Assembly (NCBI RefSeq): GCF_017355915.2
Contig: NZ_JAFEUV020000001.1
Coordinates: 558,001-622,000, forward strand
Direction of reading: 5' to 3'
DNA: 64,000 nt
Source of the DNA: Telluribacter roseus
GTDB taxonomy: Bacteria > Bacteroidota > Bacteroidia > Cytophagales > Spirosomataceae
Part shown: positions 1,989 through 17,363 of the stretch, piece after piece
How the letters are laid out: the number at the start of each line of letters is the position of its first letter
Position numbering within the stretch: position 1 is the first letter of the stretch
Program-made: the position numbers and the translations under genes
The notes under the pieces: model-generated
What the model saw: only the letters and a program-made list of their open reading frames with translations
Told to the model about the DNA's origin: nothing
Databases searched by the model: none

Positions 1989-3497
1989 ATGACAGCCCAA
2001 AGTAAATCCATAAAAGGTACAAATCCCGATGTGGTTTTGATCGGTGCGGGAATCATGAGTGCTACTCTTGGTATGCTGCTAAAAGAGTTACAGCCTGATC
2101 TGACCATTGAAATAATTGAGAGACTTGACGTAGCCGCCGCCGAGAGCTCTGACGCCTGGAATAACGCCGGTACCGGCCACGCGGCTTTCTGCGAACTTAA
2201 CTATACACCCCAACGCGCCGATGGCTCCATTGACACCTCCAAAGCGGTGAAGATTGCGGAGTCATTTGAGGTGTCACGCCAGTTCTGGGCTTACCTGATT
2301 CAGAAGGAGCTCGTGCAGTTGCCCGATTCATTTATCCGCAGGCTGCCCCACATGAGTTTTGTATGGGGAGACGAAAACGTAGACTACCTGCGCAAGCGGT
2401 ACGAAGCCATGCGCGAGTGCCACCTGTTTGAAGAGATGGAGTATTCGGAGGATCCTACTCAGCTCAAGGAGTGGATGCCCCTGGTGATGGAAGGCCGCGA
2501 CCCCAACCAGAAGGTAGCCGCTACCTACATGCCCATCGGTACCGACGTAAACTTCGGAGCCCTGACCCGCAGCATGTTTGAATGCCTGCAGCAGATGGAA
2601 GGCGTAACCCTGCACTTCGACCAGGAAGTAAACGACCTGGACCGCAAGAAGACTGGCTGGGAAATAAGTGTAAAGGATAGAAAGACGGATAAGAAAAGAA
2701 AGATACGGGCCCGATTCGTATTTATTGGTGCGGGTGGTGGATCCCTGCCGCTGCTGCTCAAGTCGGGCATACCCGAGGGTAAGGGCTTTGGTGGCTTTCC
2801 CGTTAGTGGCCAGTGGCTGCGTTGCAACAATCCGGAGGTAATCAAGCGGCACCATGCCAAAGTATACGGTAAGGCCTCGGTAGGTTCGCCGCCGATGTCG
2901 GTACCTCACCTGGATACCCGTATGATCAAAGGAAAGCAGGAGCTGCTGTTTGGCCCCTACGCGGGCTTTACGACCAAGTTCCTCAAGCAGGGCTCGTACT
3001 TTGACCTGCCGCTTTCGGTAAAGCTGCAGAACATCCGCCCCATGATCTCGGCCGGTCTGCACAACATTCCGCTTACGCGTTACCTCATTGACCAGGTACG
3101 TCAGTCGCCCGAAGATAAGTTTGAGGCCCTGAAAGAGTACTTCCCCGAAGCCCGCATGGAAGACTGGGAACTGGAAGTAGCCGGAAAGCGGGTACAGGTG
3201 ATCAAGAAGGATCCCAAAGGCGGTGGTGTACTGGAGTTTGGTACTGAGGTAGTAAGCGCCGCCGATGGTAGCATTGCCGCCCTGCTGGGTGCCTCACCGG
3301 GAGCCTCTACGGCCGTATCCATCATGCTGACCCTGATGGAGCGCTGCTTCCCCGATCAGGTACGCTCAGAAGCCTGGCAGCAAAAGCTCAGAGACATGAT
3401 CCCGTCCTACGGAAAGTCTCTGGCCAAAGACGCCCAACTCTGCCGCGAAATCCGCAACTACACCAGCGAAGTACTCGGCCTGGAAATGGTAGGGTAG
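1989..3497 (+). CDS. mqo: Malate:quinone oxidoreductase
   Basis: This 502-residue protein has the usual length for Mqo. It oxidises malate to oxaloacetate with FAD and passes electrons directly to the quinone pool at the inner face of the cytoplasmic membrane, bypassing NAD-linked malate dehydrogenase in the TCA cycle. The N-terminal FAD-binding motif VVLIGAGIMSATLG (about residues 15-28) is followed by SSDAWNNAGTGHAAFCELNYTP, which is characteristic of Mqo. Further family blocks include GAGGGSLPLLLKSGIPE and FGPYAGFTTKFLK. There is no signal peptide, as expected for a peripheral membrane enzyme. The gene is monocistronic, with a -7 motif 34 bases upstream and a long perfect hairpin downstream. 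Confidence 0.96.
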   Translation: MTAQSKSIKGTNPDVVLIGAGIMSATLGMLLKELQPDLTIEIIERLDVAAAESSDAWNNAGTGHAAFCELNYTPQRADGSIDTSKAVKIAESFEVSRQFWAYLIQKELVQLPDSFIRRLPHMSFVWGDENVDYLRKRYEAMRECHLFEEMEYSEDPTQLKEWMPLVMEGRDPNQKVAATYMPIGTDVNFGALTRSMFECLQQMEGVTLHFDQEVNDLDRKKTGWEISVKDRKTDKKRKIRARFVFIGAGGGSLPLLLKSGIPEGKGFGGFPVSGQWLRCNNPEVIKRHHAKVYGKASVGSPPMSVPHLDTRMIKGKQELLFGPYAGFTTKFLKQGSYFDLPLSVKLQNIRPMISAGLHNIPLTRYLIDQVRQSPEDKFEALKEYFPEARMEDWELEVAGKRVQVIKKDPKGGGVLEFGTEVVSAADGSIAALLGASPGASTAVSIMLTLMERCFPDQVRSEAWQQKLRDMIPSYGKSLAKDAQLCREIRNYTSEVLGLEMVG

Positions 3498-3523
3498 TAG
3501 GTGGTTTGATATATTTGATTATA

Positions 3524-3556
3524 AATAGAGCCTGTCAGCAACTGACAGGCTCTATT
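3524..3556. terminator. Bidirectional terminator between mqo and the propeller array
   Basis: A perfect 15-bp stem (3524-3538 with 3542-3556) has a 3-base loop. It sits between convergent genes, with AT-rich flanks on both sides, so it can serve mqo (+) and the last propeller gene (-). Confidence 0.85.
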
Positions 3557-3576
3557 AGTTTTATAATGATCAAAGG

Positions 3577-4977
3577 CTAGTGCTTAAATTTAGCAATAAA
3601 AATATCATTGGAATGGGAAGTAAGAGTAGTGCTACCGAAAGTAGCACTACCAAGAAATGATCCAGTCACCGTCATATTACCCAGTGCATCAACAGCAATA
3701 CCATGACCTTCATCAATGCCACCTGTTGCTCCCGCTTTCTCAGCCCAGATAAAAGTCCCTGAAGAAGAATATTTCATTATAAATATATCCCTATCAAAAA
3801 GTCCTCCAGTAGTTAGAGATTTGGTGCCAAAATTTGCAACATCAGAATATGTTCCAGTAACATATACATAGCCATTATTATCTACAGAAATACTAAATCC
3901 TAGATCAAAACCTGTACCTCCTCCTTGTCTTGCCCACTGAACTTCTCCATTACTACTATATTTGGCTAGGAAGACGTCTATCCCTCCTGTACCATTAAAG
4001 ACAGTTGTACCAAATAGGGCAGAATCAACAAAGTACCCGGTTATATATACATCACCATTTTCATCTGTAACAATACTATTTCCTCCATCATTTTGGCTCC
4101 CTCCTGCTTTCTGGACCCACTGAAGTTGACCATGTTGATTATATTTTGCAATAAAAATGTCAGTAAAACCACTTGAAGTGAGAGTGGTCGTATTGAAGGT
4201 GGCTCTTCCACTAAATGATCCAGTTACAAATACGTTTCCGCTTTTATCTACTGCTATTCCATTACCTTGGTCAATTTCACTAAAACTTCCTACTATACTT
4301 GTGACTTTTTGAACCCACTGCCCTTCTCCATTAGTATTAAATTTGGCAATAAAAATATCGCTCACGTCACTGGAAGTAAGTGTAGTAGCGCCAACTGTTA
4401 TTTTTCCATCGAAATTTCCAGTCACATATACATTTCCACTTTCATCAACTGCAATACTTCGTCCGTAATCAATGCCTGCACCTCCTATTCTCTGGACCCA
4501 TTGCATCTCACCACTGCTACTGTATTTGACTATGAATGCATCAAATAAATCAAGGATTTGATTTGAACTATTAGAAACAATTGTACTAGTGCCAAATGTA
4601 GCCGAATGCTGAAAGCGTCCAATAACATATACATTGCCATGGATATCTACAGCAATATCTTGTCCGTTGTCGTGACCAGTTCCTCCTCCATGTTTAGCCC
4701 ACTCCACTTCGCCGCTGCTATTGTATTTGACAACAAACATCTCATTGTATCCACTCCCAGAAAGTGTAATTGCTCCGAAATCAGCCTTATCATAAAAAAA
4801 TCCGGTTACATATGTGTTCCCGCTTTTATCTACGGCTACACCCAATCCCTCGTCATGACCAGAGCCCCCCTCGCTCCAGGCCATAACGTCTTCGGGGAGA
4901 GGCTCCAGATTGTGATCCTGACAGCCTGATATGAAGGCTATGAGTAGTGAGGTCAGTAAGATTACAGTTTGTTTCAT
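3577..4977 (-). CDS. SBBP beta-propeller lipoprotein, array copy 1 (last transcribed)
   Basis: This 466-residue protein has a lipoprotein signal peptide (MKQTVILLTSLLIAFISGC, Cys19) followed by QDHNLEP. Seven repeats of about 60 residues then each begin with the pattern (I)AVDxxGNxYVTG, at about residues 48, 109, 175, 241, 303, 363 and 427. Each repeat ends with a D-I-F-I-A-K-Y/F strand and a G-E-x-Q-W strand. This is the SBBP (seven-bladed beta-propeller) repeat, so a single closed propeller anchored by lipid is expected in the cell envelope. Ligand and function are unknown. There is no C-terminal secretion domain: the protein ends on the last blade strand. Copy 2 is its closest relative, sharing the same irregular blades 2 and 3. 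Sampled GC is about 35-38%, well below its neighbours. Confidence 0.88.
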   Translation of the reverse strand: MKQTVILLTSLLIAFISGCQDHNLEPLPEDVMAWSEGGSGHDEGLGVAVDKSGNTYVTGFFYDKADFGAITLSGSGYNEMFVVKYNSSGEVEWAKHGGGTGHDNGQDIAVDIHGNVYVIGRFQHSATFGTSTIVSNSSNQILDLFDAFIVKYSSSGEMQWVQRIGGAGIDYGRSIAVDESGNVYVTGNFDGKITVGATTLTSSDVSDIFIAKFNTNGEGQWVQKVTSIVGSFSEIDQGNGIAVDKSGNVFVTGSFSGRATFNTTTLTSSGFTDIFIAKYNQHGQLQWVQKAGGSQNDGGNSIVTDENGDVYITGYFVDSALFGTTVFNGTGGIDVFLAKYSSNGEVQWARQGGGTGFDLGFSISVDNNGYVYVTGTYSDVANFGTKSLTTGGLFDRDIFIMKYSSSGTFIWAEKAGATGGIDEGHGIAVDALGNMTVTGSFLGSATFGSTTLTSHSNDIFIAKFKH

Positions 4978-5046
4978 AATGTAGTTGTGTAAGTGTGCAT
5001 GGATTATTGAATGAAGGATGCTTATTTAGCATGAGTAGGTATGATA

Positions 5047-5087
5047 GAAAAAGCCCGGCAGCTATTTGGATTAATAGTTGCCGGGCT
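5047..5087 (-). terminator. Terminator hairpin of array copy 2
   Basis: Read on the minus strand, a 14-bp stem (5087-5074 with 5065-5052, one G-T pair) is followed by a T run. It lies directly after the copy-2 stop codon. The core stem sequence CCGGCAGCTA recurs after copies 3 and 7, with a close variant after copy 4. Confidence 0.82.
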
Positions 5088-5091
5088 CTTG

Positions 5092-6486
5092 TTATTGCTT
5101 ATACTTAGCTACAAATATGTTATTACTACCACTGGAATTAAGGGTAGTGGTACCAAAGGTGGCAGGGCCTAAAAAAGTACCTATTACGTATACATTTTTA
5201 TCTTCATCTACTGCAACCCCTAGACCATCTTCAAGGCCGTTTTTCGCTCCTGCTGTCTGAGCCCATTGAAAAGCTCCCATAGAATTATATTTAGCAATAA
5301 ACATATCTCTATCAAAAATGCTTGCAGTGGTGAAGGTTGTCGTACCAAAGGTGGCGATATGAGAGTAGTTTCCAGATATGTAAACATCATCTTTATTATC
5401 TAAAGCTATACTAAGACCATTTGCATTTTCTATATTCTGTACCCACTGTATATCACCGCTGCTGCTATATTTTGCTAGAAAGAAGTTTGGCCCACCTTCA
5501 CCAAGAAGTACCTTTGAGCCGAATGTAGCGTTATGATGAAAATAACCAGTTACATATATATTATTATTTTGATCAACTGTAATACTATTCCCTCTATCGC
5601 TTCGGGAGCCTCCAGCTCGTTGAGCCCACTGGAGATCTCCAGTGGCGTTATATTTTGCAATAAATATATCACTTGCGCCACTGGATGTAAGAGGTGTCGT
5701 TCCAAAAAAGATTGTACCGTTAAATATTCCGGTCACATATACATTGCCGCTTTTGTCTACTGTTATACCCTGGCCTTCATCTACTTCGCCAAAACTTCTA
5801 ACTAAACTCGCTGCTATCTTAACCCATTGACCTTCTCCATTGGTGTTGTATTTAGCAACAAATACATCACTCACATCATTGGAATTTAGAGTTGTGGAGC
5901 CAACTGTTATTTTTTCGCCAAAATAACCAGTCACATACACATTGCCACTTTCATCAACAGTGATACTTTGCCCGAAATCATTGCCGTTCCCTCCTAATTG
6001 CTGGACCCATTGAAACTCACCATTGCTGCTGTACTTTGCTATGAAAATATCAATCACATCGAAAATGTGAATTGAACCATTGGAGACAATTGTAGTAGTA
6101 CCAAAAGTTGCTGATTTCTGAAATCGGCCTATGACATAGACGTTACCATTTATATCTACACTAATATCCTGTCCAAGATCGTAACCAACTCCACCCTCAT
6201 TCTTAGCCCATAGTACATCACCATTACTGTTATACTTAACAATAAATACATCATCTTCTCCTTTGGAAGTAAGTGTAGTTGTACCGAAGGTAGCTGTCCC
6301 CTTAAAATGGCCCGTTGTATATATATTGCCACTTTTATCTACAGCTATACTAGTTCCAATATCATAGCCTGGCCCGCCCGCCTGCCAGGCCATGACATCT
6401 TCGGGATGAGGTTCCAGATTGTGATCCTGACAGCCTGATATGAAGGCTATGAGTAGTGAGGTCAGTAAGATTGCAATTTTTTTCAT
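5092..6486 (-). CDS. SBBP beta-propeller lipoprotein, array copy 2
   Basis: This 464-residue lipoprotein has Cys19 after LLIAFISG and then QDHNLEPHPEDVMAW. Seven SBBP blades are visible, and the arrangement is colinear with copy 1: a long loop in blade 2 (IVSNGSIHIFDVIDIFIAKY) and the KITVGSTTL variant in blade 3 match it blade for blade. The pair therefore looks like a recent whole-gene duplication. It is envelope-anchored, of unknown function. Codons are very AT-rich; one sampled 60-base line has only 15 G+C. The 39 bases between the terminator of copy 3 and this ATG leave little room for a separate promoter, so read-through from upstream copies is likely. Confidence 0.88.
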   Translation of the reverse strand: MKKIAILLTSLLIAFISGCQDHNLEPHPEDVMAWQAGGPGYDIGTSIAVDKSGNIYTTGHFKGTATFGTTTLTSKGEDDVFIVKYNSNGDVLWAKNEGGVGYDLGQDISVDINGNVYVIGRFQKSATFGTTTIVSNGSIHIFDVIDIFIAKYSSNGEFQWVQQLGGNGNDFGQSITVDESGNVYVTGYFGEKITVGSTTLNSNDVSDVFVAKYNTNGEGQWVKIAASLVRSFGEVDEGQGITVDKSGNVYVTGIFNGTIFFGTTPLTSSGASDIFIAKYNATGDLQWAQRAGGSRSDRGNSITVDQNNNIYVTGYFHHNATFGSKVLLGEGGPNFFLAKYSSSGDIQWVQNIENANGLSIALDNKDDVYISGNYSHIATFGTTTFTTASIFDRDMFIAKYNSMGAFQWAQTAGAKNGLEDGLGVAVDEDKNVYVIGTFLGPATFGTTTLNSSGSNNIFVAKYKQ

Positions 6487-6525
6487 AATGTAGTTGTGTA
6501 TGGATAGATTCGATTGGAGATAACA

Positions 6526-6563
6526 GAAAAAAACCGGCAGCTACCTCAACCAGTAGCTGCCGG
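6526..6563 (-). terminator. Terminator hairpin of array copy 3
   Basis: The minus-strand stem CCGGCAGCTAC/GTAGCTGCCGG (6563-6553 with 6544-6534) has an 8-base loop and is followed by a run of T on the minus strand (A run at 6527-6533). Confidence 0.83.
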
Positions 6564-6573
6564 GATCATCTTG

Positions 6574-7857
6574 CTATTCTTTGTATCGGGCTATAAATAG
6601 ACTTCCTCCACTTGCGGAGAGGGTTTGGCCGGCCAGGGTGGTAGTGGTGTTATGAAATTGACCGACTACAAATATATTTCCTTCGGGACTTAGAGTTATA
6701 CCAGATGCAACTTCATAGGAAGCGGTTCCATCCCTTCTAATCCATTTGAGCGTACCATCACTAGCCAGTTTGGCTATGTAGATATCTGATCCTCCACTGG
6801 ATGTAAGGGTTTGTCCCAGAATGTTTGCTGTACCACTAAAGTTACCGGTTATAAATACTTCACCCTGCGCGTTGGCTGCTATATCAACGGCAGGAATTTG
6901 ATGAAACCACTGAACAGTGCCGCTGCTATTGATTTTACCTATACTATTCTCTGTGTCGACATAAACATTTCCTGCCTCATCCACTTCTACATTCTGACCC
7001 CAGCCGTTGCCTATTCCTAATGTCGTTATCCACTGTAGGGCGCCCTGGGGGTTGTACTTTGCAATATTACCGGCACCATTGGCCTCTGCTATTATCCCTG
7101 TTATGTAGAAGTTTCCCTCTTTATCTGTTGTCATATTAACGGCCACATCGATCCCGCTTTTACCAACCTGCCTGACCCATTGATACTCGCCAGAAGTATT
7201 AAGCTTGGCTATGAAAAAGTCGTGTGTGGTCATGCGCGGAATTCCACTGTCACGAGGAGTCATTCTAATTCCGTTCACCATTGTGGTATTAAATCTAAAA
7301 GATCCTGCTATATAAATATTGTCAGACTGGTCTATAGCAATCGCTAATATTTCACTATCACTATTCAATGTTTCATCGAGTTTTATCCACTGAATTTCTC
7401 CTTGACTCGAGTATTTTACAACAATAAAGCCCCGGCCATTAATTGTTGTCCCACCAATAGTGGCGGTATGGGTAATCTTACCCGCGGCGTATACGTTGCC
7501 ATGGCTGTCGACGGCTATGCGATAAAAGTAATTATCCCCATTACCTCCTATCTTTTGGGCCCACAGTACTTCTCCTGATGAGCTGTATTTAACAAGAAAG
7601 GAATTAATAAAATTAGTTGATTCAGGACCAGTAAGTGTTACCCCGCCAAAGGTGGCCGTATTACTATATATACCGGCCACATATACACTTCCGTCTTTGT
7701 CTCTATAAAGGTCATGCGGATACGAAATAGGTCCTCCGCCAAGCCAGGCAGACTCTTCAAGAGGAGGATTATTTGGATTAGGCTCAAAAACATGATCTTG
7801 GCAACTCGTGATAAAAGCAAGCAATAGAGACGTCAGTAGAATAGCTATTTTTTTCAT
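6574..7857 (-). CDS. SBBP beta-propeller lipoprotein, array copy 3
   Basis: This 427-residue lipoprotein has Cys19 (LLLAFITSC) followed by QDHVFEPNP. There are seven blades, but blade 5 is short: VEVDEAGNVYVDTENSIGKI lacks the usual outer-loop segment and runs about 33 residues instead of about 60. The same short blade 5 occurs in copies 5, 6 and 8, defining a second lineage in the array. The N-terminal linker (FEPNPNNPP) also follows that lineage. Like the others it ends on a blade strand (LFIARYKE) with no sorting domain. Function is unknown, and a surface or periplasmic binding role is only inference from the fold. Confidence 0.87.
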   Translation of the reverse strand: MKKIAILLTSLLLAFITSCQDHVFEPNPNNPPLEESAWLGGGPISYPHDLYRDKDGSVYVAGIYSNTATFGGVTLTGPESTNFINSFLVKYSSSGEVLWAQKIGGNGDNYFYRIAVDSHGNVYAAGKITHTATIGGTTINGRGFIVVKYSSQGEIQWIKLDETLNSDSEILAIAIDQSDNIYIAGSFRFNTTMVNGIRMTPRDSGIPRMTTHDFFIAKLNTSGEYQWVRQVGKSGIDVAVNMTTDKEGNFYITGIIAEANGAGNIAKYNPQGALQWITTLGIGNGWGQNVEVDEAGNVYVDTENSIGKINSSGTVQWFHQIPAVDIAANAQGEVFITGNFSGTANILGQTLTSSGGSDIYIAKLASDGTLKWIRRDGTASYEVASGITLSPEGNIFVVGQFHNTTTTLAGQTLSASGGSLFIARYKE

Positions 7858-7927
7858 AATGTAGTTGTGTAGGTGTGAATGGATTAGTGGATGAAGGATG
7901 TCTCTTTAAGCAAGACAGGGTTTAATA

Positions 7928-7967
7928 GAAAAAGCCGGGCAGCTATCGGTAAAATAGCTGCCCGGCT
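7928..7967 (-). terminator. Terminator hairpin of array copy 4
   Basis: A perfect 14-bp stem AGCCGGGCAGCTAT/ATAGCTGCCCGGCT (7933-7946 with 7954-7967) is followed on the minus strand by a T tract. It closely resembles the stem after copy 2. Confidence 0.85.
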
Positions 7968-7971
7968 CCTG

Positions 7972-9372
7972 TTACTGCTTGAACTTTGCTACGAAGATGT
8001 CACTACCACTACTGGATGTGAGGGAAGTGATGCCAAAGGTGGCGGTATGTTCGAAGCTTCCTGTGATATAGACGGTACCACTATAATCTATGGCAATGCT
8101 TTGGCCGTTGTCATTGCCAGTCCCTCCGGCAGTTTTAGTCCATAGCAAATTTCCATGGCTATCAAATTTTCCAACAAACACATCTGCATCACCATAATGA
8201 ACCAGGTCGATAACACTTCCACTTGGTCCTGACCCTTGCCTAGGATAGGGAACATAAGTGAGTTGTGGAGATGAATTAAAGCTGATTAAGTATACATTTT
8301 CATCTTTATCTACGGCTATATCTTCACCTCTATATTGCATACCAATTGTACCTAAGAAATAGGACCACTGTCTTTCTCCATTCGTATTGTATTTAGCAAA
8401 ATAGATCTGACTATCGAACCGATATTCAACCATTTGTCCCGTAACGTAGGCATTACCATTCTTATCTACTGCGATAGCGGTTCCAGATCCCCCAACATCA
8501 CCCTGCTGAGCCCAAATCACCTCTCCGGTGTTGCTGTATTTGGCAGTAAATATTTCTTGTCTACTACCAGAGGTAAGTGTTGTGGTACCAAAATCAGCAG
8601 TTCCTCTGAAGTACCCTGTTATATATGCGTTACCACTTTCATCTACGGCAACACCACGACCACCTCCATTAAAATCAGTTCCTCCTGCCTGCTGGGCCCA
8701 TAGTACATCACCATTGCTATTGTACTTGGTGATAAATACAGAAGTGTATAAATCACTGCTACCTCGGGAGGTAAGGGAGGTAGAACCAAAGGTGGCTGTA
8801 CCATTGAAAGATCCGGTCACGTATACATTGCCGACCTCATCCGCCGCAATACCATTGCCAATATCGCTAGTGAAAGGGTAATCTGAGCTACTACCTTCGT
8901 TGCGGCCCCACTGTGCTTCACCGCTGCTGTTAAGTTTGACTGTGAATATATCGGCTCCTCCGCGTGAATTAAGAATTACAGTGCCAAACGTAATTCTGCC
9001 CCGGAAGCTCCCGGTGAGGTATACGTTGCCGCTGGCATCAACCGTCATGCCTCCAATGCTGGATGAACTGGTAGCTGTCGGCTGCTGGACCCACAGTATT
9101 TCGCCGGTAGGGCTGTACTTCGCTATGAAAATAGTAACACCACCGGCTGGTGAGGTGAGGGATTTGGAGCCGAAGATGGCCGACTGGGTGAAGTACCCGG
9201 CTACATATACGTTGCCACTATGATCGGTGGCAATATGCTCGCCCTGATCAGAAGCCGCTCCTCCGGCACGCCAGGCCATGACGTCTTCGGGATGCGGTTC
9301 CAGATTGTGATCCTGACAGCCTGTTACAAAGGCTATGAGTAGTGAGGTCAGTAGAATGGCTACTTTTTTCAT
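7972..9372 (-). CDS. SBBP beta-propeller lipoprotein, array copy 4
   Basis: This 466-residue lipoprotein has Cys19 (LLIAFVTGC) and QDHNLEPHPEDVMAW as in copies 1, 2 and 7. Seven blades start with IATDHSGNVYVAG, MTVDASGNVYLTG, IAADEVGNVYVTG, VAVDESGNAYITG, IAVDKNGNAYVTG, IAVDKDENVYLIS and IAIDYSGTVYITG. Blade 6 carries an unusual extended segment ending VIDLVHYGDADVFVGKF, found otherwise only in copy 7, so these two form a pair although other copies lie between them. Intermediate GC. It is envelope-anchored with unknown ligand. The 5' leader just before the ATG resembles the other copies. Confidence 0.88.
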   Translation of the reverse strand: MKKVAILLTSLLIAFVTGCQDHNLEPHPEDVMAWRAGGAASDQGEHIATDHSGNVYVAGYFTQSAIFGSKSLTSPAGGVTIFIAKYSPTGEILWVQQPTATSSSSIGGMTVDASGNVYLTGSFRGRITFGTVILNSRGGADIFTVKLNSSGEAQWGRNEGSSSDYPFTSDIGNGIAADEVGNVYVTGSFNGTATFGSTSLTSRGSSDLYTSVFITKYNSNGDVLWAQQAGGTDFNGGGRGVAVDESGNAYITGYFRGTADFGTTTLTSGSRQEIFTAKYSNTGEVIWAQQGDVGGSGTAIAVDKNGNAYVTGQMVEYRFDSQIYFAKYNTNGERQWSYFLGTIGMQYRGEDIAVDKDENVYLISFNSSPQLTYVPYPRQGSGPSGSVIDLVHYGDADVFVGKFDSHGNLLWTKTAGGTGNDNGQSIAIDYSGTVYITGSFEHTATFGITSLTSSSGSDIFVAKFKQ

Positions 9373-9424
9373 GGGGTAGTTGTGTAAGTATGGATGGAGT
9401 ATAGAATGTCCTGTGGAATGAACA

Positions 9425-9467
9425 AAAAGCAGGAGGGGCTTCTACCTCTGGGTAGTAGCCCCTCCTG
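9425..9467 (-). terminator. Terminator hairpin of array copy 5
   Basis: The stem CAGGAGGGGCT/AGCCCCTCCTG (9430-9440 with 9457-9467) has a further inner CTACC/GGTAG stem, followed by a T run on the minus strand. The stem sequence is shared only with copy 6. Confidence 0.83.
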
Positions 9468-9472
9468 TTACC

Positions 9473-10765
9473 TTACTCTTTATACGTAGCCACAAATATG
9501 TCAGTCAGGCCCGCAGAGGTCAGGCTGGTACCCGCTATGGTGGTGGTACCTTCGAAGGTACCCAAGAGGTGGATAATTCCTCCCTCACTTAATATATTTT
9601 CACGGGAAGAATCATTTTGGGGACCTCCTTCCTGTACTATCCATTTAAACGACCCATTTTTATCATATTTGACCAGGAAGATGTCATACCCTCCACGGGA
9701 GGTAAGTGTTTGTCCTTCAATAGTGATGGTGCCACTAAATGTGTCCGTTACGTAGTAGTCACCATTCCTGTTAAAAGTTACCTTAGTATAAGTCGGATGA
9801 CTCCCAACAGGAATACCTTTGTGCCATTCTGCCTCGCCATTGCTGTTAAGCTTTGTAACAACAGCACCGGTTTGTACATAGCTGTTACCAGCTTCATCTA
9901 CTCCAATGTTTCTTGCCTCACCAAATGTTAATGCTTGACGTACTGCTGTAACCCACTGTCGGGTTCCGTCAGGCGCGAATTTTGCAGCAAAGGAGGTTGC
10001 CCCGGTAACATTGATACCGTCAAATGTAGAACCGGAATCTGTAACGCCGGAGACAAATACGTTACCCGCCTGATCCAGGGCTAAACCTAAACCATAATCT
10101 GTCCTGTCCCCTGCTAAGTGCTTAACCCACTGCAAGGTTCCGTCCTTATTTACCTTGAGCAGAAAGCCATCCTCAAAGCCGCCAGGTTTAGCAGACTGTG
10201 GCCTTGAAGCGAATTCGATTCCCCCAAAATCCACTGTTCCCGAAAACCAGCCGGTTATATAGGTGTTTCCGGCACCATCAGTAACTAAGTCAATGGGAAT
10301 CATGATACTTGTGAAGGTGCGATCGCCGGTATTAGCCGTAGTAGCAAGTATCCATCTCAGAGTGCCATCGTTGGTATAGCTGGCAAGGTATACCTCATTC
10401 TCACCGGATTGTCCAAAGTCGGCTTTACTACCCAGGCGCTGCGCGGCTACGTAGACGTTACCACTCGCATCAACGCCAACAAAATGTCCCGCTGGATCGA
10501 GAACTGGTCTTAGATTCTTCCTCCATTGTAGTACTCCACTGCTGGTGTATTTACCAATGAAAGTTCCATCAAGATTTCCTGTCAAAAACAGATTGCCCTG
10601 AGCGTCCCGGGCAATATTGTAAGATTGATCACTTCCTGTTCCTCCGGTTCGCCAGGCTCCAAGTGCCTGAATTGTACCGGATGGGGGAGGTTCAAATACG
10701 TGATCCTGGCAGCCTGATGCTAGAGCCACCGTTAACGAGGTCAGTAGAATGGCTACTTTTTTCAT
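9473..10765 (-). CDS. SBBP beta-propeller lipoprotein, array copy 5
   Basis: This 430-residue lipoprotein has Cys19 (VALASGC) followed by QDHVFEPPPSGT. Seven blades are present with a shortened blade 5 (IGVDEAGNSYVQTGAVVTKL), as in copies 3, 6 and 8. It is very similar to copy 6 along its full length, and a stretch around 9690-9740 recurs almost unchanged around 11080-11130. This is the youngest-looking duplication in the array together with copies 1 and 2. It ends DIFVATYKE with no extra C-terminal domain. Function is unknown. Confidence 0.88.
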   Translation of the reverse strand: MKKVAILLTSLTVALASGCQDHVFEPPPSGTIQALGAWRTGGTGSDQSYNIARDAQGNLFLTGNLDGTFIGKYTSSGVLQWRKNLRPVLDPAGHFVGVDASGNVYVAAQRLGSKADFGQSGENEVYLASYTNDGTLRWILATTANTGDRTFTSIMIPIDLVTDGAGNTYITGWFSGTVDFGGIEFASRPQSAKPGGFEDGFLLKVNKDGTLQWVKHLAGDRTDYGLGLALDQAGNVFVSGVTDSGSTFDGINVTGATSFAAKFAPDGTRQWVTAVRQALTFGEARNIGVDEAGNSYVQTGAVVTKLNSNGEAEWHKGIPVGSHPTYTKVTFNRNGDYYVTDTFSGTITIEGQTLTSRGGYDIFLVKYDKNGSFKWIVQEGGPQNDSSRENILSEGGIIHLLGTFEGTTTIAGTSLTSAGLTDIFVATYKE

Positions 10766-10815
10766 TGTGTAGTTGAGTAAGTGTGAATGGAGTATAGAAT
10801 GTCATGTGGAATGAA

Positions 10816-10860
10816 TAAAAAACAGGAGGGCTACTACCCTGATGTAGAAGCCCTCCTGTT
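10816..10860 (-). terminator. Terminator hairpin of array copy 6
   Basis: A perfect 12-bp stem AACAGGAGGGCT/AGCCCTCCTGTT (10821-10832 with 10849-10860) is followed on the minus strand by a T run. Confidence 0.84.
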
Positions 10861-10863
10861 ACC

Positions 10864-12150
10864 TTACTCCTTATACGTAGCTACAAATATATCGGTCTGT
10901 CCAGCGGAGGTCAGACTGGTACCCGCTATGGTGGTGGTACCTTCGAAGTAACCCAGCAGGTGAATGACGCCTCCTTCACCCAGCACAATTTTCCTTGCCG
11001 TTTCGTTTTGAGGCCCTCCTTCCTGTACTACCCATTTTAAAGAACCATACTTATCATATTTGACCAGAAACACGTCATACCCTCCACGGGAGGTAAGTGT
11101 TTGTCCTTCAATAGTGATGGTGCCACTAAAGGTATCTGTTACATAGTAGTCGCCATCGGTATTAAAAGCTATGTCTTCGTTGGCCTCGTTGAAATAGAAT
11201 GATGCAGAGGGAATTCCTTTGTGCCATTCTGCCTCTCCACCGCTGTTAAGTTTTGTAACGACAGCACCGGTTCCTACATAGCTATTACCGGATGCATCTA
11301 CGCCAATATGTCTTCCATGTCCAAAGCTGGCCTGGCGAACAGCGGTTATCCATTGCCGTGTACCGTCGGGTGTGTACTTAATGGCAAAGGAGGTTGTTCC
11401 GGTAACAGTAATGCCCCCAAACGTAGAGCCTGAATTAGTAAAGCCGGAGACAAATACGTTACCTGCCTGATCCAGGGCTACATCTAAACCTGAATCTGTC
11501 CTGTTCCCTGCTAACTGCCTGACCCACTGCAAGGCACCATCCTTGTTTACCTTGAGCAGAAAGCCATCCTCAAAGCCGCCAATTTTATCAGCCTGAGCTC
11601 TTGAAGTAAGTTCGATTCCGCCAAAATCGACAGTTTCTGAAAACCAGCCGGTCATATAAGTATTGCCAGCATCATCAGCAATAAAGCCAAGGGGATGCAA
11701 AGAGCCTTTGCCCGTATTAGCGGAAGTAGAAAGTATCCACCGGAGGGTGCCATCGTTGGTGTAGCTGGCAAGATATACCTCATCCACACCGGATTGTCCA
11801 AAGTCGGCTCTACTACCCAGGCCACGTCCGGCTACGTAAATGTTTCCACTTGCATCAAGAGCTATAAGTTGCCCAGAGGGGTCCACAACCCTTTTTAATT
11901 CATTCCTCCACTGCTGGCTTCCACTGCTATTGTATTTGGCCACAAAGGGCACGGTCTGCCTACCGGTAAGGTAAAGGTACCCCTGTGAGTCGCGAGCCAT
12001 ATAGTTGGGAATATCAGACTCTGTACTTCCCGTTCTCCAGGCTCCTAGTGTCTGAAGGGTACCGGATGGGGGAGGCTCAAAAACGTGATCCTGACAACCT
12101 GTCAAAAAGGCTATGAGTAGTGAGGTTAGTAAGATTGCAGTTTTTTTCAT
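10864..12150 (-). CDS. SBBP beta-propeller lipoprotein, array copy 6
   Basis: The start was set at the ATG at 12150 because it gives the standard signal peptide MKKTAILLTSLLIAFLTGC (Cys19), aligned with the other seven copies. The frame extends 17 codons further upstream (12201), but that extension is polar and unrelated. The product is 428 residues, with QDHVFEPPPSGT after the Cys, seven blades and a short blade 5. It is near-identical in plan to copy 5, differing mainly in blade 1 and the segment before blade 6. It is an envelope lipoprotein of unknown function. Confidence 0.87.
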   Translation of the reverse strand: MKKTAILLTSLLIAFLTGCQDHVFEPPPSGTLQTLGAWRTGSTESDIPNYMARDSQGYLYLTGRQTVPFVAKYNSSGSQQWRNELKRVVDPSGQLIALDASGNIYVAGRGLGSRADFGQSGVDEVYLASYTNDGTLRWILSTSANTGKGSLHPLGFIADDAGNTYMTGWFSETVDFGGIELTSRAQADKIGGFEDGFLLKVNKDGALQWVRQLAGNRTDSGLDVALDQAGNVFVSGFTNSGSTFGGITVTGTTSFAIKYTPDGTRQWITAVRQASFGHGRHIGVDASGNSYVGTGAVVTKLNSGGEAEWHKGIPSASFYFNEANEDIAFNTDGDYYVTDTFSGTITIEGQTLTSRGGYDVFLVKYDKYGSLKWVVQEGGPQNETARKIVLGEGGVIHLLGYFEGTTTIAGTSLTSAGQTDIFVATYKE

Positions 12151-12220
12151 AATGTAATTGAATAGGTATGAATAAATTATTGGACTAGGACGCCTCATCA
12201 AGTACTATTGGGCATAACAG

Positions 12221-12263
12221 AAAAAGCCCGGCAGCTACTGGTTGGAATAGCTGCCGGACTTTT
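12221..12263 (-). terminator. Terminator hairpin of array copy 7
   Basis: The stem CCGGCAGCTA/TAGCTGCCGG (12228-12237 with 12248-12257) extends across one mismatch into AAAG/CTTT. A T run follows on the minus strand. The core is identical to that after copy 3. Confidence 0.82.
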
Positions 12264-12268
12264 CTGTA

Positions 12269-13645
12269 TTACTTGAATTTAGCTACAAATACATCAATAT
12301 CACCGCTGGATGTAAGGGTAGTGGTACCAAAAGTAGCGGTGCCTGGAAAGTATCCTGTTGTGTACGCCGTACCCTGCTCATCTACGGCAATGCCAAGTCC
12401 GACGTCGTCACCAGGACCTCCGGCACTTCGGGCCCAGTACAGATTTCCATTGTTGTCAAACTTTACTACAATGATATCGTCATCACCATAATGAACTATG
12501 TCTATATCAACACTTACCAATCCTGAGCTCGTTCTTTTGCCGATTCCGATTTGTGAACCATGAGTTCTACCTATCACATATACATTTCCATTTTTATCTA
12601 CGGCTATATCTGCTCCATATTCTGTTCCACCCATTCTGCCTATGAACCCGGACCATTGTATTTCACCGGTAGTAGTATATTTAGCAATATGTATATCTGG
12701 AGTGAACGCACCTATGTAAATTGTTCCCGTGACATAGACATTCCCACTTCCATCTACTGCGATTCCGGACCCGAAACTACCCATACCACTTTCCTGCCGG
12801 ACCCAGAGAGCCTCACCGGCGCTGTTGTATTTAACAACGAATAAATTAGAATCAGTAGCTCTGGAATGTGCTACTGCGGTAAGTGTAAATGCGCCAAAGG
12901 TAGCAGTTCCTGTGAAGGACCCTATTATATATGCGTTACCGTTTTCATCTACGGCAATATCACTTACACCATCTGAATCTGTTCCTCCTGCCTGCTGGGC
13001 CCATAGTATATCCCCATTGCTGTTGTATTTAGCTATAAATACATCGTTGCTACCTCGGGAGGTAAGGGTGGTAGTGCCAAAAGTGGCGGTACTCTGAAAG
13101 CTACCGGTGACATAGGGGTTCCCGCCTCTATCTAAGGCAATACCATATCCAGAGTCAAAGTTTGTGCCGCCAGCATTCCTTGCCCATTGTACCTCTCCGT
13201 TGGTGCTGTACTTACTAATGAATATATCCCGTTCTCCGGTAGAGGTAAGCGAAAGGGTACCAAAGGTGGCGGTACCTGAGATGTACCCTGTGATGTAGAA
13301 ATTACCCTGTTCATCTAACGTAATACCATACCCCTGGTCAGCGAGAGGCCCTCCGGCTTGTTTAGCCCATAATACATCCCCTTTATTGTTGTACTTGACG
13401 ATGAATATGTCTGATATGCCATTGGAGATGAGAGTAGTAGAGCCAAAGGTAGCAGTGCCGGTAAAACCTCCTGTGACATATACGTTGCCGCTCTGATCTA
13501 CAGCAATATCTTGTCCTGAATCTCCGGCGGGACCTCCCGCCCGCCAAGCCATGACGTCTTCGGGATGAGGTTCGAGATTGTGATCCTGACAGCCTGATAC
13601 AAAGGCCATAAGTAGTGAGGTCAGTAGAATTATGACTTTTTTCAT
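12269..13645 (-). CDS. SBBP beta-propeller lipoprotein, array copy 7
   Basis: This 458-residue lipoprotein has Cys19 (LLMAFVSGC) and QDHNLEPHPEDVMAW. There are seven blades, with the same extended blade 6 as copy 4 (segment VDIDIVHYGDDDIIVVKF), so it belongs to the copy 4/7 sublineage. Blades 1-4 are close to the SBBP consensus (GTATFGTTTLTS, DIFIxKYN, GxVxWAxxAGG). It ends VFVAKFK at the final strand. Envelope-anchored, function unknown. The region upstream (13646-13731) has a near -7 match on the minus strand (TATGTCTG), but nothing convincing. Confidence 0.88.
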   Translation of the reverse strand: MKKVIILLTSLLMAFVSGCQDHNLEPHPEDVMAWRAGGPAGDSGQDIAVDQSGNVYVTGGFTGTATFGSTTLISNGISDIFIVKYNNKGDVLWAKQAGGPLADQGYGITLDEQGNFYITGYISGTATFGTLSLTSTGERDIFISKYSTNGEVQWARNAGGTNFDSGYGIALDRGGNPYVTGSFQSTATFGTTTLTSRGSNDVFIAKYNSNGDILWAQQAGGTDSDGVSDIAVDENGNAYIIGSFTGTATFGAFTLTAVAHSRATDSNLFVVKYNSAGEALWVRQESGMGSFGSGIAVDGSGNVYVTGTIYIGAFTPDIHIAKYTTTGEIQWSGFIGRMGGTEYGADIAVDKNGNVYVIGRTHGSQIGIGKRTSSGLVSVDIDIVHYGDDDIIVVKFDNNGNLYWARSAGGPGDDVGLGIAVDEQGTAYTTGYFPGTATFGTTTLTSSGDIDVFVAKFK

Positions 13646-13731
13646 GGGGGAATAGGTATAGATGGATAAAGAGTAGAACCTAGTATAAACCAGACATACA
13701 ATTGCATCAGTAGTAGTGTGTATAAGCCGAA

Positions 13732-13773
13732 AAGCGATAAGGCTACTGCCAATGGATAGCGACCTTATCGCTT
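13732..13773 (-). terminator. Terminator hairpin of array copy 8
   Basis: An 11-bp perfect stem AAGCGATAAGG/CCTTATCGCTT (13732-13742 with 13763-13773) directly follows the copy-8 stop codon. The stem sequence is unrelated to the other array hairpins, and the T run on the minus strand is weak. Confidence 0.7.
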
Positions 13774-13780
13774 CTGAGTA

Positions 13781-15109
13781 TTACTGATCATACCTGACAA
13801 TGAAGATCTCAGAGTTTCCTGCCGAGCTGAGAGAGGTGCCGGCTAAGGTAGTAGTACTATTGAAAGTGCCCGTTACGTATAGCTCCCCACGGGCTCCCGG
13901 ATCAACACGGATCCCGTAGTCGTTCTGACGGCCTCCTTCCCGCTTCATCCAGACCAGACCCCCACTCCGGTTGAGTTTAGCCAGAAATACATCCGTTCCT
14001 CCGCTGGAAGTCAGGGTAAGGCCTTCCACGTTCAGGGTACCTTCGAAGCTTCCTGTTATATACACACCCCCATCAGCACTGGCAGCGATATCGTAGATGG
14101 AGGCATTGCCAAGCTGCCTGTTCCACTGGACTACCCCACTGCTGTTGAGCCAGGAAATTACATTGCCCGATTTGACAAAGCTGTTACCAGCCTCATCTAC
14201 CGTAATTTTATCCCCACGCGCGGGCGAGTTTCGTCGTACGCCTGTGGCCCATTGCAATGTACCATCGGTCGCAAACTTGGTGGCGTATGAATCATTTGAA
14301 AAGTAGAACTGGATATCGCCAAAGCGGGCAGGGTGGGAAGTGGAGTAGCCGGAGGCATATACATTACCGGCCTTATCTACCGCTACGCTATTGCCAACAT
14401 CTATCTGAGCACCGCCTACCTTTCTAACCCACAGAAATACGCCATCGGTATTTAGCTTGGCTATAAAGGCATCTTCACGTCCGCCGATTTTGATTTCACT
14501 GGAAGTGGCCGTAAGAGGTATGTCGCCAAACAGTACTGTTCCTTCAAACAAACCCGTCAGATATACAAAGCCACTTTCATCTGCTTCAATACCAAAGGCA
14601 GGGCTTGCATTGAACACAGAATGGGGGGAGCTTACCTGCCGTACCCAAAGGACATCTCCGCTGCTAGTGTACTTTACGAGGTAGAAACCCTCACCTGTCA
14701 GTGTAGTTCCGTCAAAAGTCGCAGAGCCGTTGAACCCGCCTGTTGCATATAAGTTGCCGTTTCCATCAACTGCAACGCCAAAAATATTGGCAGACCTGTT
14801 AGATTCCACCATTCGAACCCACTGGGCTTCGCCGGTAGCGTTGTACTTAGCAATAAACGTGTGTGTTTCCTGATCAGGTTTTGTGATGGTGATGTGACCA
14901 AAGTGTGCGGTCCCACGGAAGGTCCCGCTTATAAAAGAATTTCCGTTTCTGTCTACGGCGAAATCCTGAATGGAGGAGTTAGGCCCTCCGGCTTTCCATG
15001 CCAGGCCGTTACTGGGGGGATCATTGGGGGAAGGTTCCAGATTATGGTCCTGACAAGCAATCAAAACTACTAGTAACGAAGAGACCAGTAGAATAGCGAC
15101 TTTCTTCAT
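13781..15109 (-). CDS. SBBP beta-propeller lipoprotein, array copy 8 (first transcribed)
   Basis: This 442-residue lipoprotein has the most divergent signal peptide (MKKVAILLVSSLLVVLIAC) but still Cys19 followed by QDHNLEPSPNDPP. Seven blades are visible, with the short blade 5 (ITVDEAGNSFVKSGNVISWL) of the copy 3/5/6 lineage. Sampled GC is about 55%, much closer to the flanking chromosome than copies 1 and 2. As the promoter-proximal gene it may represent the oldest member. Upstream lies 505 bases rich in inverted repeats but without a clear TAnnTTTG box on this strand. Function is unknown. Confidence 0.87.
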   Translation of the reverse strand: MKKVAILLVSSLLVVLIACQDHNLEPSPNDPPSNGLAWKAGGPNSSIQDFAVDRNGNSFISGTFRGTAHFGHITITKPDQETHTFIAKYNATGEAQWVRMVESNRSANIFGVAVDGNGNLYATGGFNGSATFDGTTLTGEGFYLVKYTSSGDVLWVRQVSSPHSVFNASPAFGIEADESGFVYLTGLFEGTVLFGDIPLTATSSEIKIGGREDAFIAKLNTDGVFLWVRKVGGAQIDVGNSVAVDKAGNVYASGYSTSHPARFGDIQFYFSNDSYATKFATDGTLQWATGVRRNSPARGDKITVDEAGNSFVKSGNVISWLNSSGVVQWNRQLGNASIYDIAASADGGVYITGSFEGTLNVEGLTLTSSGGTDVFLAKLNRSGGLVWMKREGGRQNDYGIRVDPGARGELYVTGTFNSTTTLAGTSLSSAGNSEIFIVRYDQ

Positions 15110-15183
15110 AGAGGTGTAGTTATATTTAAAAGTTGATTATAGATCTAGTGTTTATGATTTGCTGAGCTAATTAGCAATTGAAG

Positions 15184-15248
15184 CAGAAAGCTCTGACACA
15201 GACTTTCTGGTACAAGTACCACCTAAGAACCAGCTCGATCATATCGAG
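15184..15248. repeat. Cluster of three inverted repeats upstream of the propeller array
   Basis: Three hairpins lie in 65 bases: CAGAAAG/CTTTCTG (15184-15190 with 15203-15209), GGTAC-AA-GTACC (15209-15220) and CTCGAT-cat-ATCGAG (15234-15248). They lie 75-140 bases before the first array gene, so they could form a structured 5' leader or protein-binding sites. None is followed by a T run on either strand. Confidence 0.5.
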
Positions 15249-15306
15249 ACCTGCCTGATCGGCCTTAGAGGTAAAGGAGTAGATAGAGGAGGGGCACGTT
15301 AATAGT

Positions 15307-15340
15307 CTAACCGCTGTACCTGTTTTAGTCCGGCGGTTAG
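15307..15340. repeat. Inverted repeat (10-bp stem) in the array's upstream region
   Basis: CTAACCGCTG (15307-15316) pairs with CGGCGGTTAG (15331-15340) with one G-T pair and a 14-base loop. There is no T run on either side, so it is a regulatory or operator candidate rather than a terminator. The rest of 15110-15532 is AT-rich with no gene I can support. Confidence 0.45.
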
Positions 15341-15532
15341 GCTAGTTGACTGTAAATAACCCAATTAATTCAATGAGGAACAAAAAATGCATAATAAGTT
15401 TTTACTAATTTTATCTTACGGTACTAAGGTTACATTTTATTGCCACTGACTGATAGTCAATGATTTGCTTGCGAAAAGCCTTTGGCAGTACCAGGAGTAC
15501 CCGCTGTCCCTTCTTTTAGTAGTGTAGGGCTG

Positions 15533-15560
15533 TTGTAATTGCTAACAACGTGTATATTTG
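15533..15560 (+). promoter_or_regulatory. Bacteroidota promoter of the nucleoside hydrolase gene
   Basis: TTG at 15533-15535 (the -33 box core) lies 17 bases before TATATTTG at 15553-15560, an exact TAnnTTTG. The spacing is within the known 17-23 range. The ATG is at 15615, giving a leader of about 45-50 bases. Confidence 0.7.
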
Positions 15561-15614
15561 ACGCATTATCTCCTGATCATAGGGGATCTTTACCTTTAAG
15601 CGATAAGTATACAT

Positions 15615-16640
15615 ATGACAAGATGCTACTCCTGCCTGATGGGCCTGGTTTTACTGCTTGCTCTGCCCTTCACCACGCTGGGGCAGCAGGCGGGTATGGA
15701 AAATGCGGTTACTCCCCGGATGCGGGTGATTATTGACAATGATTTCAGTGGTGATCCGGACGGATTGTTCCAGTTGGCGCACCTGTTGCTATCCCCGTCG
15801 GTGGAGGTAAGGGCCATCGTGGGTTCGCACCTGAGAGTAGGGGATGGATTTGACCCTTCCAAAGTCCAGGCCGACAATGCGGCCAAAAAAGCCAGAGAAC
15901 TGGTACAGCTAATGGGTGGTAAAAGTAACATCCCCATTATAGCCGGATCAAATACAGCCATGCCCAACGACAGTACTCCCGTAAAAAGTGAGGCAGTCAA
16001 CTTCATTATAAAAGAAGCCTTACGGACTGATACCAAACAGCCACTGTATGTACTGTGCGGAGCCGGACTTACCGAGATAGCATCGGCTCTGCTGACTTCG
16101 CCCCAGATTGCCGGCAAGCTGACGGTGGTCTGGATTGGCGGGCCGGAGTACAGCGATCTGGCCTTTCCTCCCCCTAATTATTCAAGTCCTGAGTACAATC
16201 TGAACATCGACATACCGGCGGCCCGGGCGGTATTTAACCGTTCGGCGGTGCCGGTGTGGCAGGTACCCCGCAATGCCTACCGGCAGGCTCTGCTGCCCTA
16301 TTCGCAGCTCTTACTAAAGGTAAAGCCGCACGGTAAGGTAGGTAGTTACCTGACGGAAGTAATCGAAGGCCTGATGACCCGACTGTCGAAGTATGGCCTG
16401 AACATTGGCGAAACGTACGTTATGGGTGATAGCCCGCTGGTGTTGCTGACGGCGCTACAGTCATCCTTTGAGGCCGATCCGTCGTCCAGTGAGTATGTAG
16501 TCCGGATGTCCCCCCGGATCAACCAACAGGGAGCCTATGAACATAATCACCAGGGACGGCCCATCCGGGTATACACCCGTCTGGACATTAATCTCATGTT
16601 CAACGACTTTTTTGCCAAGCTGGAGCTGATGAACAGGTAG
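15615..16640 (+). CDS. Secreted nucleoside hydrolase (IUNH family)
   Basis: This 341-residue protein has a cleavable signal peptide (hydrophobic core LMGLVLLLALPFTTLG, cleavage near GQQ), so it is predicted to be periplasmic. The calcium-binding N-terminal signature appears as IIDNDFSGDPDG where the family norm is DTDxGxDD; the first three acidic positions are kept while the last is Pro-Asp. AGLTEIASAL and VWIGGPEY follow in expected order. The enzyme would split ribonucleosides into base and ribose for scavenging. It has its own promoter and no partner gene. The C-terminal active-site His is less clear, so substrate preference is not predictable. Confidence 0.85.
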   Translation: MTRCYSCLMGLVLLLALPFTTLGQQAGMENAVTPRMRVIIDNDFSGDPDGLFQLAHLLLSPSVEVRAIVGSHLRVGDGFDPSKVQADNAAKKARELVQLMGGKSNIPIIAGSNTAMPNDSTPVKSEAVNFIIKEALRTDTKQPLYVLCGAGLTEIASALLTSPQIAGKLTVVWIGGPEYSDLAFPPPNYSSPEYNLNIDIPAARAVFNRSAVPVWQVPRNAYRQALLPYSQLLLKVKPHGKVGSYLTEVIEGLMTRLSKYGLNIGETYVMGDSPLVLLTALQSSFEADPSSSEYVVRMSPRINQQGAYEHNHQGRPIRVYTRLDINLMFNDFFAKLELMNR

Positions 16641-16834
16641 GGGGGAGACTGATACTATGGATTAAACGAAGGTTGATAGCCTAATATACAAGGATAGGGA
16701 TATTGCCTTGTGCAGCTAAGCCATGTACATCTGAAACGATTTAGCCAATATCAGGTTCAAAAAGCTGGTAGGGCTTTGTTTAAATGGAGGAAGACGTATA
16801 TACTTGTGGAAACATTCCACCTCTATTCCACTTC

Positions 16835-17227
16835 ATGAAAAAGTTACTACTCCTGCTTGCCCCTGTGCTGGCTCTATTTTCCCTGTCCGGTTGTGCTACT
16901 CTTTTTTCCGGAACTACTCAGGTAGTTCGTATTGAATCCAGCCCTCCGGGAGCCCTGGTAGAGATTAACGGCGTTTCGCACGGTACTACCCCTGCTGCCG
17001 TTCCAATGAAGAAAAACCTGAGCCAACCTTCGGTGGTCCTGACCAAAGAGGGGTATCAGTCCAAAGTATTTTCCCCCTCGTCGACCTTTGATGTAGTGAG
17101 TATTCTCAACATATTTTTCTGGCCGGGATTTGCTATCGATGCAGTAACCGGGGCAATGATGAAATACGATCAACTGCTTTATAAGGTAACGCTGGAGCCT
17201 AGCCCTAAGGCGTCTGCGTCCAATTAA
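16835..17227 (+). CDS. PEGA-domain lipoprotein
   Basis: The ATG at 16835 is preferred over the in-frame ATG at 16784 because it begins directly with a lipoprotein signal (MKKLLLLLAPVLALFSLSGC, Cys20). The mature part opens with a beta-sandwich PEGA motif (IESSPPGALVEINGVSHGTT and TPAAVPM). A hydrophobic segment (SILNIFFWPGFAIDAVTGAM) that may lie on or in the membrane follows. The product is 130 residues, anchored in the envelope. PEGA domains usually pack against surface-layer or other envelope proteins; the specific role is unknown. A strong terminator follows. The 194 bases before it (16641-16834) show nothing convincing. Confidence 0.75.
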   Translation: MKKLLLLLAPVLALFSLSGCATLFSGTTQVVRIESSPPGALVEINGVSHGTTPAAVPMKKNLSQPSVVLTKEGYQSKVFSPSSTFDVVSILNIFFWPGFAIDAVTGAMMKYDQLLYKVTLEPSPKASASN

Positions 17228-17252
17228 CCTTTTGGCTGATAAGATATATCAG

Positions 17253-17288
17253 GAGGTACCAGCTGTTATAAGTTGGTACCTCTTTTTT
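17253..17288 (+). terminator. Terminator of the PEGA lipoprotein gene
   Basis: GAGGTACCA (17253-17261) pairs perfectly with TGGTACCTC (17274-17282), followed by six T residues. Confidence 0.9.
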
Positions 17289-17363
17289 GTTAGGGGCAAA
17301 CAGGCAGGGGAAACACAGGTGCAACAAAAAAGCCCAAACACTTTCGTATTTGAGCTTTTCAAG

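Follow-up and report, generated by a model that had tools for sequence, protein, structure and literature searches.

Why should a bacterium keep a row of eight divergent propeller lipoprotein genes? The question is raised by a locus of Telluribacter roseus, a species of a soil genus, at positions 3577-15109 of the 64,000-nucleotide stretch analysed here (the window, from a genome of 6.3 Mb), where eight complete open reading frames (ORFs) of 427-466 amino acids (aa) lie head to tail on the minus strand and are read in the order r8 to r1. A first-pass annotation had described eight consecutive lipoprotein genes with an invariant Cys19-Gln20-Asp21-His22, and this description was borne out, all eight ORFs being complete and the four residues invariant at positions 19-22 in all eight aligned copies; 59 alignment columns are invariant. 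Comparison within the genus was between two genomes, those of T. roseus and Telluribacter humicola, the latter of which carries nine family genes (h1-h9) at the same locus, flanked by the same two neighbours except that one additional gene separates h9 from the hydrolase gene. Together, these and the following observations suggest, with what we regard as an even chance of being correct, that the array is a genus-specific tandem family evolving by birth and death and encoding outer-membrane lipoprotein binders. The copies are the following.

3577..4977, minus strand: copy 1 (r1), SBBP propeller lipoprotein, 466 aa, ortholog h2
5092..6486, minus strand: copy 2 (r2), 464 aa, sister of the pair r1/h2, without a T. 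humicola ortholog of its own
6574..7857, minus strand: copy 3 (r3), 427 aa, ortholog h5
7972..9372, minus strand: copy 4 (r4), 466 aa, BLAST best partner h4 (53%), both unplaced in the tree
9473..10765, minus strand: copy 5 (r5), 430 aa, groups with h1 (92/86), then with r6
10864..12150, minus strand: copy 6 (r6), 428 aa from the family ATG
12269..13645, minus strand: copy 7 (r7), 458 aa, ortholog h8 (93/92), modelled as a seven-bladed propeller
13781..15109, minus strand: copy 8 (r8), 442 aa, the array's first gene in reading direction, ortholog h9

The eight proteins are 28-71% identical to one another by BLAST, r5 and r6 being the closest pair, and the intergenic gaps measure 67-135 bp with the ORF starts as listed by the ORF program; the listed r6 ORF starts at a TTG at 12201, whereas the family ATG lies at 12150 and gives an r6-r7 gap of 118 bp. 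Because the copies are so diverged and a second species of the genus carries nine at the same place, duplication during assembly, which the first-pass annotation had set against a stable array, is ruled out. In a maximum-likelihood tree of 22 proteins, r8=h9, r3=h5 and r1=h2 were recovered as orthologs at 100/100 and r7=h8 at 93/92, and these four pairs keep the same order in both arrays. No clear one-to-one partner was found for r2, r4, r5 and r6 (4/8) or for h1, h3, h4, h6 and h7 (5/9): r5 groups with h1, yet in T. humicola h1 occupies the far end of the array, and r4 and h4 match best in the h-to-r BLAST direction, the tree settling neither. Copy number across genomes, the check that the annotation had proposed, hence reads eight in T. 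roseus versus nine in T. humicola, with partial turnover. The gene h1, which lies 475 bp from h2 and has its own copy of the head element described below, looks like the product of a joint duplication of head region and gene. Each genome has two further, unlinked lipoprotein copies (C7 and C5 in T. roseus, C19 and C24 in T. humicola). Beside the C19 copy (hC19) of T. humicola lies a 137-residue SBBP-like ORF without a signal peptide (locus L051 4295-4708, genome G001), possibly a decayed copy.

The array was expected to be unusual, and its distribution agrees. An N-terminal profile of 61 positions, which detects close relatives only and for which at most 28 candidates were scored per genome, gave strong matches from position 1 in three of 222 family genomes, namely the two Telluribacter genomes and G014 (82% complete), the latter with two genes on separate contigs and without a tandem neighbour; as an array, the N-terminal type was seen in the two Telluribacter genomes only. 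A further 62 family genomes gave weak matches only (E 3e-7 to 1e-3, mostly partial). At the order level, an SBBP match at E <=1e-30 was present in 152 of 390 genomes, a measure of presence and not of array size, with at most four candidates scored per genome. In ten stretches from four genomes (G021, G139, G244 and G272), the probable lipoprotein propellers were single genes (three in G244, one in G272), and the longest run outside Telluribacter consisted of three tandem SBBP propeller genes without a lipobox (L148 5293-10299, in G139, another genus of the family). The other SBBP propellers of the order share the propeller but occur, at the loci examined, as single probable lipoproteins or, mostly, as genes for non-lipoproteins, some of which end in a type IX-like tail as judged by a simple pattern. 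No comparable array was described in the titles and abstract openings retrieved from one library of open papers on SBBP propeller lipoproteins, Telluribacter or gene conversion in tandem lipoprotein arrays.

The array is kept by purifying selection, looser than that on five neighbouring genes. The ratio of nonsynonymous to synonymous divergence (Ka/Ks) between orthologs is 0.144 for r8/h9, 0.263 for r7/h8, 0.239 for r3/h5 and 0.162 for r1/h2, from which it follows that the array genes are maintained; the five neighbours give 0.029-0.110. No positive selection was seen in pairwise Ka/Ks. All copies are intact in both species (8/8 and 9/9), and silent or truncated donor copies, as in antigenic-variation cassettes, were not found among them. 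For r3 (6574-7857) and h5, the whole-gene Ks of 0.325 lies below the 0.44-1.12 of the five neighbours, with identical runs of up to 68 bp, and exchange between the two species is possible.

All eight proteins exceed the Pfam cut-off for SBBP (PF06739), with 53.1-147.2 bits against 20.5, so the family assignment is not due to chance; Pfam finds one to five significant SBBP stretches per protein and matches repeat and propeller families only. An AlphaFold2 model of r7, built on an input alignment of 25 window and relative sequences, is a seven-bladed propeller (pLDDT 90.7, pTM 0.89) with ring closure and four-stranded blades, as counted from its strand list; a signal helix is followed by a low-confidence stretch and by the first propeller strand at residue 31. 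Seven blades had been claimed for each protein, and the model supports this for copy 7, the other seven copies being assigned by alignment to it. Freshly amplified, highly repetitive propellers of the kind treated in part of PMC9218822 were not seen, the mean blade-to-blade identity within one copy being only 25-48%. A Foldseek search with the r7 model placed CylK first (PDB 7FH6 and 7RON, TM by query 0.73-0.75), and CylK is the nearest solved relative by sequence too (profile, E 6.6e-53). CylK is described, in excerpts of PMC8916777, as having long internal loops, Ca2+ at blade junctions and an N-terminal Ca2+-binding domain that supplies Arg105, whereas the array proteins, as modelled for r7, would be propeller only and lack that domain of CylK-type alkylating enzymes. 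Much weaker Foldseek matches included designed propellers, Sec12 and NHL domains; the cobalamin-binding surface lipoproteins BT2095 and BT1954 were among them as well, at a TM by query of about 0.40-0.43 and 10-12% identity.

All eight N termini have a lipobox-like stretch and Asp at +3, and a Glu stands at +7. An export motif of two or more acids near the Cys has been reported for Capnocytophaga and Bacteroides (PMC5080379, in part). An acid at +3 occurs in 15 of 25 SusD homologs of the T. roseus genome, taken as surface lipoproteins and counted as a surface set alone (30 loci of 43 matches, minus five without a lipobox by pattern; in two, the second of two candidates was picked by eye). The N terminus therefore looks compatible with surface display. 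The type IX tail (Por_Secre_tail) had no match in the eight proteins, with 41 matches elsewhere in the genome.

In each protein, Cys19 would bear the lipid anchor, followed by a short linker containing Pro and Glu and by a single seven-bladed SBBP propeller; this propeller would act as a binding disc, either an adhesin or a capture protein, for a ligand outside the cell. The paralogs may specialise through changes in the loops of the top face and in the inner strands, the scaffold being conserved. With top and bottom loops assigned here by strand order under standard propeller topology, top-loop columns are more variable than bottom turns across 21 copies (entropy 1.83 vs 1.52, permutation p 0.006), and the inner strands are likewise variable (1.99). 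Measured against r7, the blades of the other copies contain 288 inserted residues, of which 228 map to top loops or their margins, 58 to the inside of strands B or C close to the strand ends, and two to bottom turns. This pattern fits, on the modelled topology, recognition on the top face and at the channel mouth.

How such an array might generate new members is suggested by its 5' ends. The 5' module, defined as the first ~105 coding bases, as far as the Trp at the start of the propeller, evolves in part independently of the propeller. Of 103 residues that orthologs share in the module, 55 have the same codon (53%), versus 917 of 1272 in the body (72%), the module being lower in all four pairs. 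For non-orthologous pairs, 57-61% of codons are the same in the module versus 43-45% in the body: 363/600 versus 1802/4008 within T. roseus (module higher in 24 of 28 pairs), 416/727 versus 2267/5317 within T. humicola (32 of 36) and 832/1418 versus 4438/10035 across genomes (56 of 68). Orthology therefore adds no similarity to the 5' module on average; ranked among 17, the ortholog is first for r8, second for r3 and eighth for r7 and r1. In 16 of 21 genes, module and body have different nearest relatives, compared with 9-12 of 21 for same-width body segments against the remaining body and 11 of 21 for body halves. Identical runs of 58 bp (r4/h7) and 50 bp (r7/hC19) occur in 5' modules, besides one of 60 bp.

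4904..4963, minus strand: 60-bp run in the signal-peptide module of copy 1, shared without mismatch with copy 2 (proteins 62% identical)
6413..6472, minus strand: the matching 60-bp run in copy 2

From the sequences, we infer that exchange of 5' modules between copies would be the simplest account of this decoupling: similar 5' modules may serve as crossover or conversion points, so that front ends swap while propellers diverge, and the array may gain and lose whole-gene units, each composed of a leader and signal-peptide module, a propeller and a hairpin. Selection on signal-peptide codons and translation start, together with saturation, would offer another explanation, which concerns the 5' modules alone, is compatible with the other readings and appears possible, though somewhat unlikely. 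It would account for a 5' similarity that is equal within and between genomes and for the nearly G-free leaders conserved directly before several ATGs, but codon preference should keep orthologs alike, and the Ks of the first 34 codons of r7/h8, r3/h5 and r1/h2 is 1.4-1.6 versus 0.33-0.55 for the whole genes (short and noisy estimates), r8/h9 showing the opposite trend (1.00 versus 1.33); identical runs of 50-60 bp between diverged copies also speak against it. A separate observation concerns h6 and h8 (about 70% identical proteins), in which tracts of 71 and 69 identical bp lie close together, a pattern that suggests conversion inside the body.

Leaders of this kind, almost free of G, precede several array genes. 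A 26-base pattern derived from them has eight occurrences at <=3 mismatches in both genomes, all directly before array genes (r1, r3, r4, r5, h2, h4, h6 and h7), against one occurrence of the reversed control pattern. At the opposite end of the genes, with 75 nt folded, a strong hairpin begins 1-20 nt past the stop codon in all eight T. roseus copies and in seven of nine T. humicola copies; folding energies at these 15 of 17 gene ends lie between -20.8 and -35.9 kcal/mol, whereas none of 17 mononucleotide shuffles went below -16.3, and the exceptions are h3 (-9.8) and h1 (-3.6), the hairpin of h1 being located further downstream.

3524..3556, minus strand: hairpin after copy 1, -23.7 kcal/mol, without a run of five T
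5049..5090, minus strand: hairpin and T run after copy 2, -24.9 kcal/mol
6525..6571, minus strand: hairpin and T run after copy 3, -24.7 kcal/mol
7932..7968, minus strand: hairpin and T run after copy 4, -29.8 kcal/mol
9430..9467, minus strand: hairpin, then T run, after copy 5, -30.5 kcal/mol
10821..10860, minus strand: hairpin and T run after copy 6, -27.1 kcal/mol
12221..12264, minus strand: hairpin and T run after copy 7, -29.7 kcal/mol
13731..13774, minus strand: hairpin and four T after copy 8, -20.8 kcal/mol

Given the T runs (at least five T after r2-r7, four after r8 and none after r1), terminator function appears likely for most copies. A generic terminator scan found 14 sites versus 9.9 expected, an excess that tells little, with only two gene-end hairpins on the array strand, one of them partial; folding the gene ends directly gave the clearer picture. 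Among the best 25 of 37 inverted repeats by length, about ten correspond to the hairpins at gene ends and most of the others are diverged matches, with no obvious invertible promoter.

The array head is marked by a 24-bp element.

15390..15413, minus strand: array-head element TAAAWTTARTAAAAANNTATTRTR, 280 nt ahead of the r8 ATG

At <=2 mismatches, the element, whose pattern was built from its own three sites, occurs in the 12.9 Mb of both genomes only ahead of r8, h9 and h1, at 261-280 nt from the ATG, with no occurrence of the reversed control. It may be a promoter or operator, and transcription would probably start near it ahead of r8, the gene-end hairpins limiting read-through. Bacteroidota-type promoters consist of TTG and TAnnTTTG; looked for as internal promoters, they were not matched in full upstream of any copy, and the 330 nt ahead of r8 contained none; one isolated TAnnTTTG lies 126 nt ahead of r5. 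Sigma-70-like sites were not enriched (23 found versus 24.4 expected).

Several observations weigh against a binder family with exchanged front ends and a head promoter. The head element does not match the Bacteroidota promoter, and the single Asp at +3 and single Glu at +7 fall short of the published two-acid export motif. The contrast between top and bottom is weak among orthologs, with changed residues of 0.217 in BC loops and 0.268 in DA loops versus 0.171 and 0.217 in bottom turns, and variable top loops are common among propellers generally. The distance matrices of module and body correlate (r 0.54, versus 0.44-0.89 for body segments), r8 and h9 are mutually nearest in both parts with near-equal values (13/26 and 146/280), and the 5' Ks is not below the whole-gene Ks for r5/r6, r6/h1 and h6/h8. 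Similarity of 5' modules within a genome (0.61 and 0.57) is no higher than between non-orthologs across genomes (0.59), so that any exchange need not be recent.

On the 3' side of r1, a malate:quinone oxidoreductase gene on the opposite strand converges on the array, and on the 5' side of r8 lies a divergent nucleoside hydrolase gene, also on the opposite strand; a link between either and the array is not evident. The array had been thought to have no transporter, SusC/D or enzyme neighbour: a scan of ten window ORFs, five of them next to the array and five at 22-34.7 kb, found no transporter or SusC/D, in keeping with that claim, but its enzyme part does not hold as worded, as both flanking genes encode enzymes. 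Elsewhere in the window, two tandem tRNA-Asp (gtc) genes (17370-17446 and 17519-17595, 72 bp apart) stand upstream of a NIF3-family gene, and two adjacent amidohydrolase-family genes lie on the minus strand (31651-34680, 1009 aa, and 30313-31638). No known RNA element reached the gathering threshold in 3000-17300.

Of the three roles proposed for the array at the outset, that of binders for related ligands appears to fit best. The likeliest use would be adhesion, an analogy drawn from the LipL53-family SBBP propeller lipoproteins of Leptospira, which are likewise lipoproteins with an SBBP propeller and have several paralogs in one genome, two with close locus tags, and which excerpts of PMC13066512, together with the title of Oliveira 2010, liken to an adhesin that binds laminin, fibronectin and collagen IV. 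The array proteins nevertheless score only 102.6-263.6 bits with the LipL53 model (NCBIfam NF047494), all eight below its 400-bit cut-off, which no match in the genome exceeds, and the excerpts describe no eight- or nine-gene LipL53 array. The main alternative is nutrient capture as in the BtuG proteins, corrinoid-binding surface lipoproteins of Bacteroides, whereby each copy would bind a small molecule or polymer and pass it to an unlinked TonB-dependent transporter. BtuG belongs to the same phylum and shares the architecture of a lipoprotein with a single seven-bladed propeller, BtuG-type lipoproteins are among the weaker Foldseek matches, and BtuG2 binds B12 at femtomolar affinity (PMC6143338, in part). 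We consider this use unlikely for the array, however, since btuG is found in 106 of 109 btuB operons (same source, in part) while no adjoining btuB or TonB-dependent transporter was found among the ten window ORFs, those flanking the array included, and since the resemblance, at the TM and identity values given above, is one of fold only.

The idea of a surface-diversity or recognition system, in which copies would be alternately expressed or recombined to vary the surface (for instance as phage receptors or in kin recognition), has been weakened. Tandem copies with apparently exchanged 5' modules and the identical tracts of h6/h8 would suit it, as would hairpins that could favour the first gene, but the copies are all intact, four ortholog pairs are under purifying selection, and the inverted repeats considered include no evident invertible segment, which, with two species compared, makes this reading quite improbable. 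Least probable, and in our judgement very unlikely, is a hetero-multimeric propeller complex in the cell envelope: the shared orientation, a possible single head promoter and the kept order of four orthologs are what such a complex might predict, yet the array content differs between the species in both the number and the kinds of copies, as counted above, and each genome has two more lipoprotein copies elsewhere.

SBBP propeller lipoproteins and tandem lipoprotein clusters are known kinds of system, and what is most unusual here is the proposed exchange of 5' modules together with the head element. The lpl cluster of Staphylococcus aureus also comprises tandem lipoprotein paralogs in the same orientation, and a conserved stretch in it was proposed to permit shuffling and duplication; it is, however, a different protein family on a genomic island, and its conserved part is described, in excerpts of PMC4470592, as a core with variable flanks rather than the 5' end. 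A more far-reaching idea, which we put forward as quite doubtful, is a modular bank of binders, in which the leader and signal-peptide module would be a recombination handle that joins new propellers in frame, and in which the head element and terminators would tie expression to array position, so that gene order would set the dominant surface propeller.

If the proteins of this birth-and-death family are surface binders, the eight or nine divergent discs on one scaffold would represent a natural library of ligand change in propellers. The partly separate evolution of signal-peptide module and propeller also offers a case in which ideas on the expansion of lipoprotein families in bacteria can be tested.

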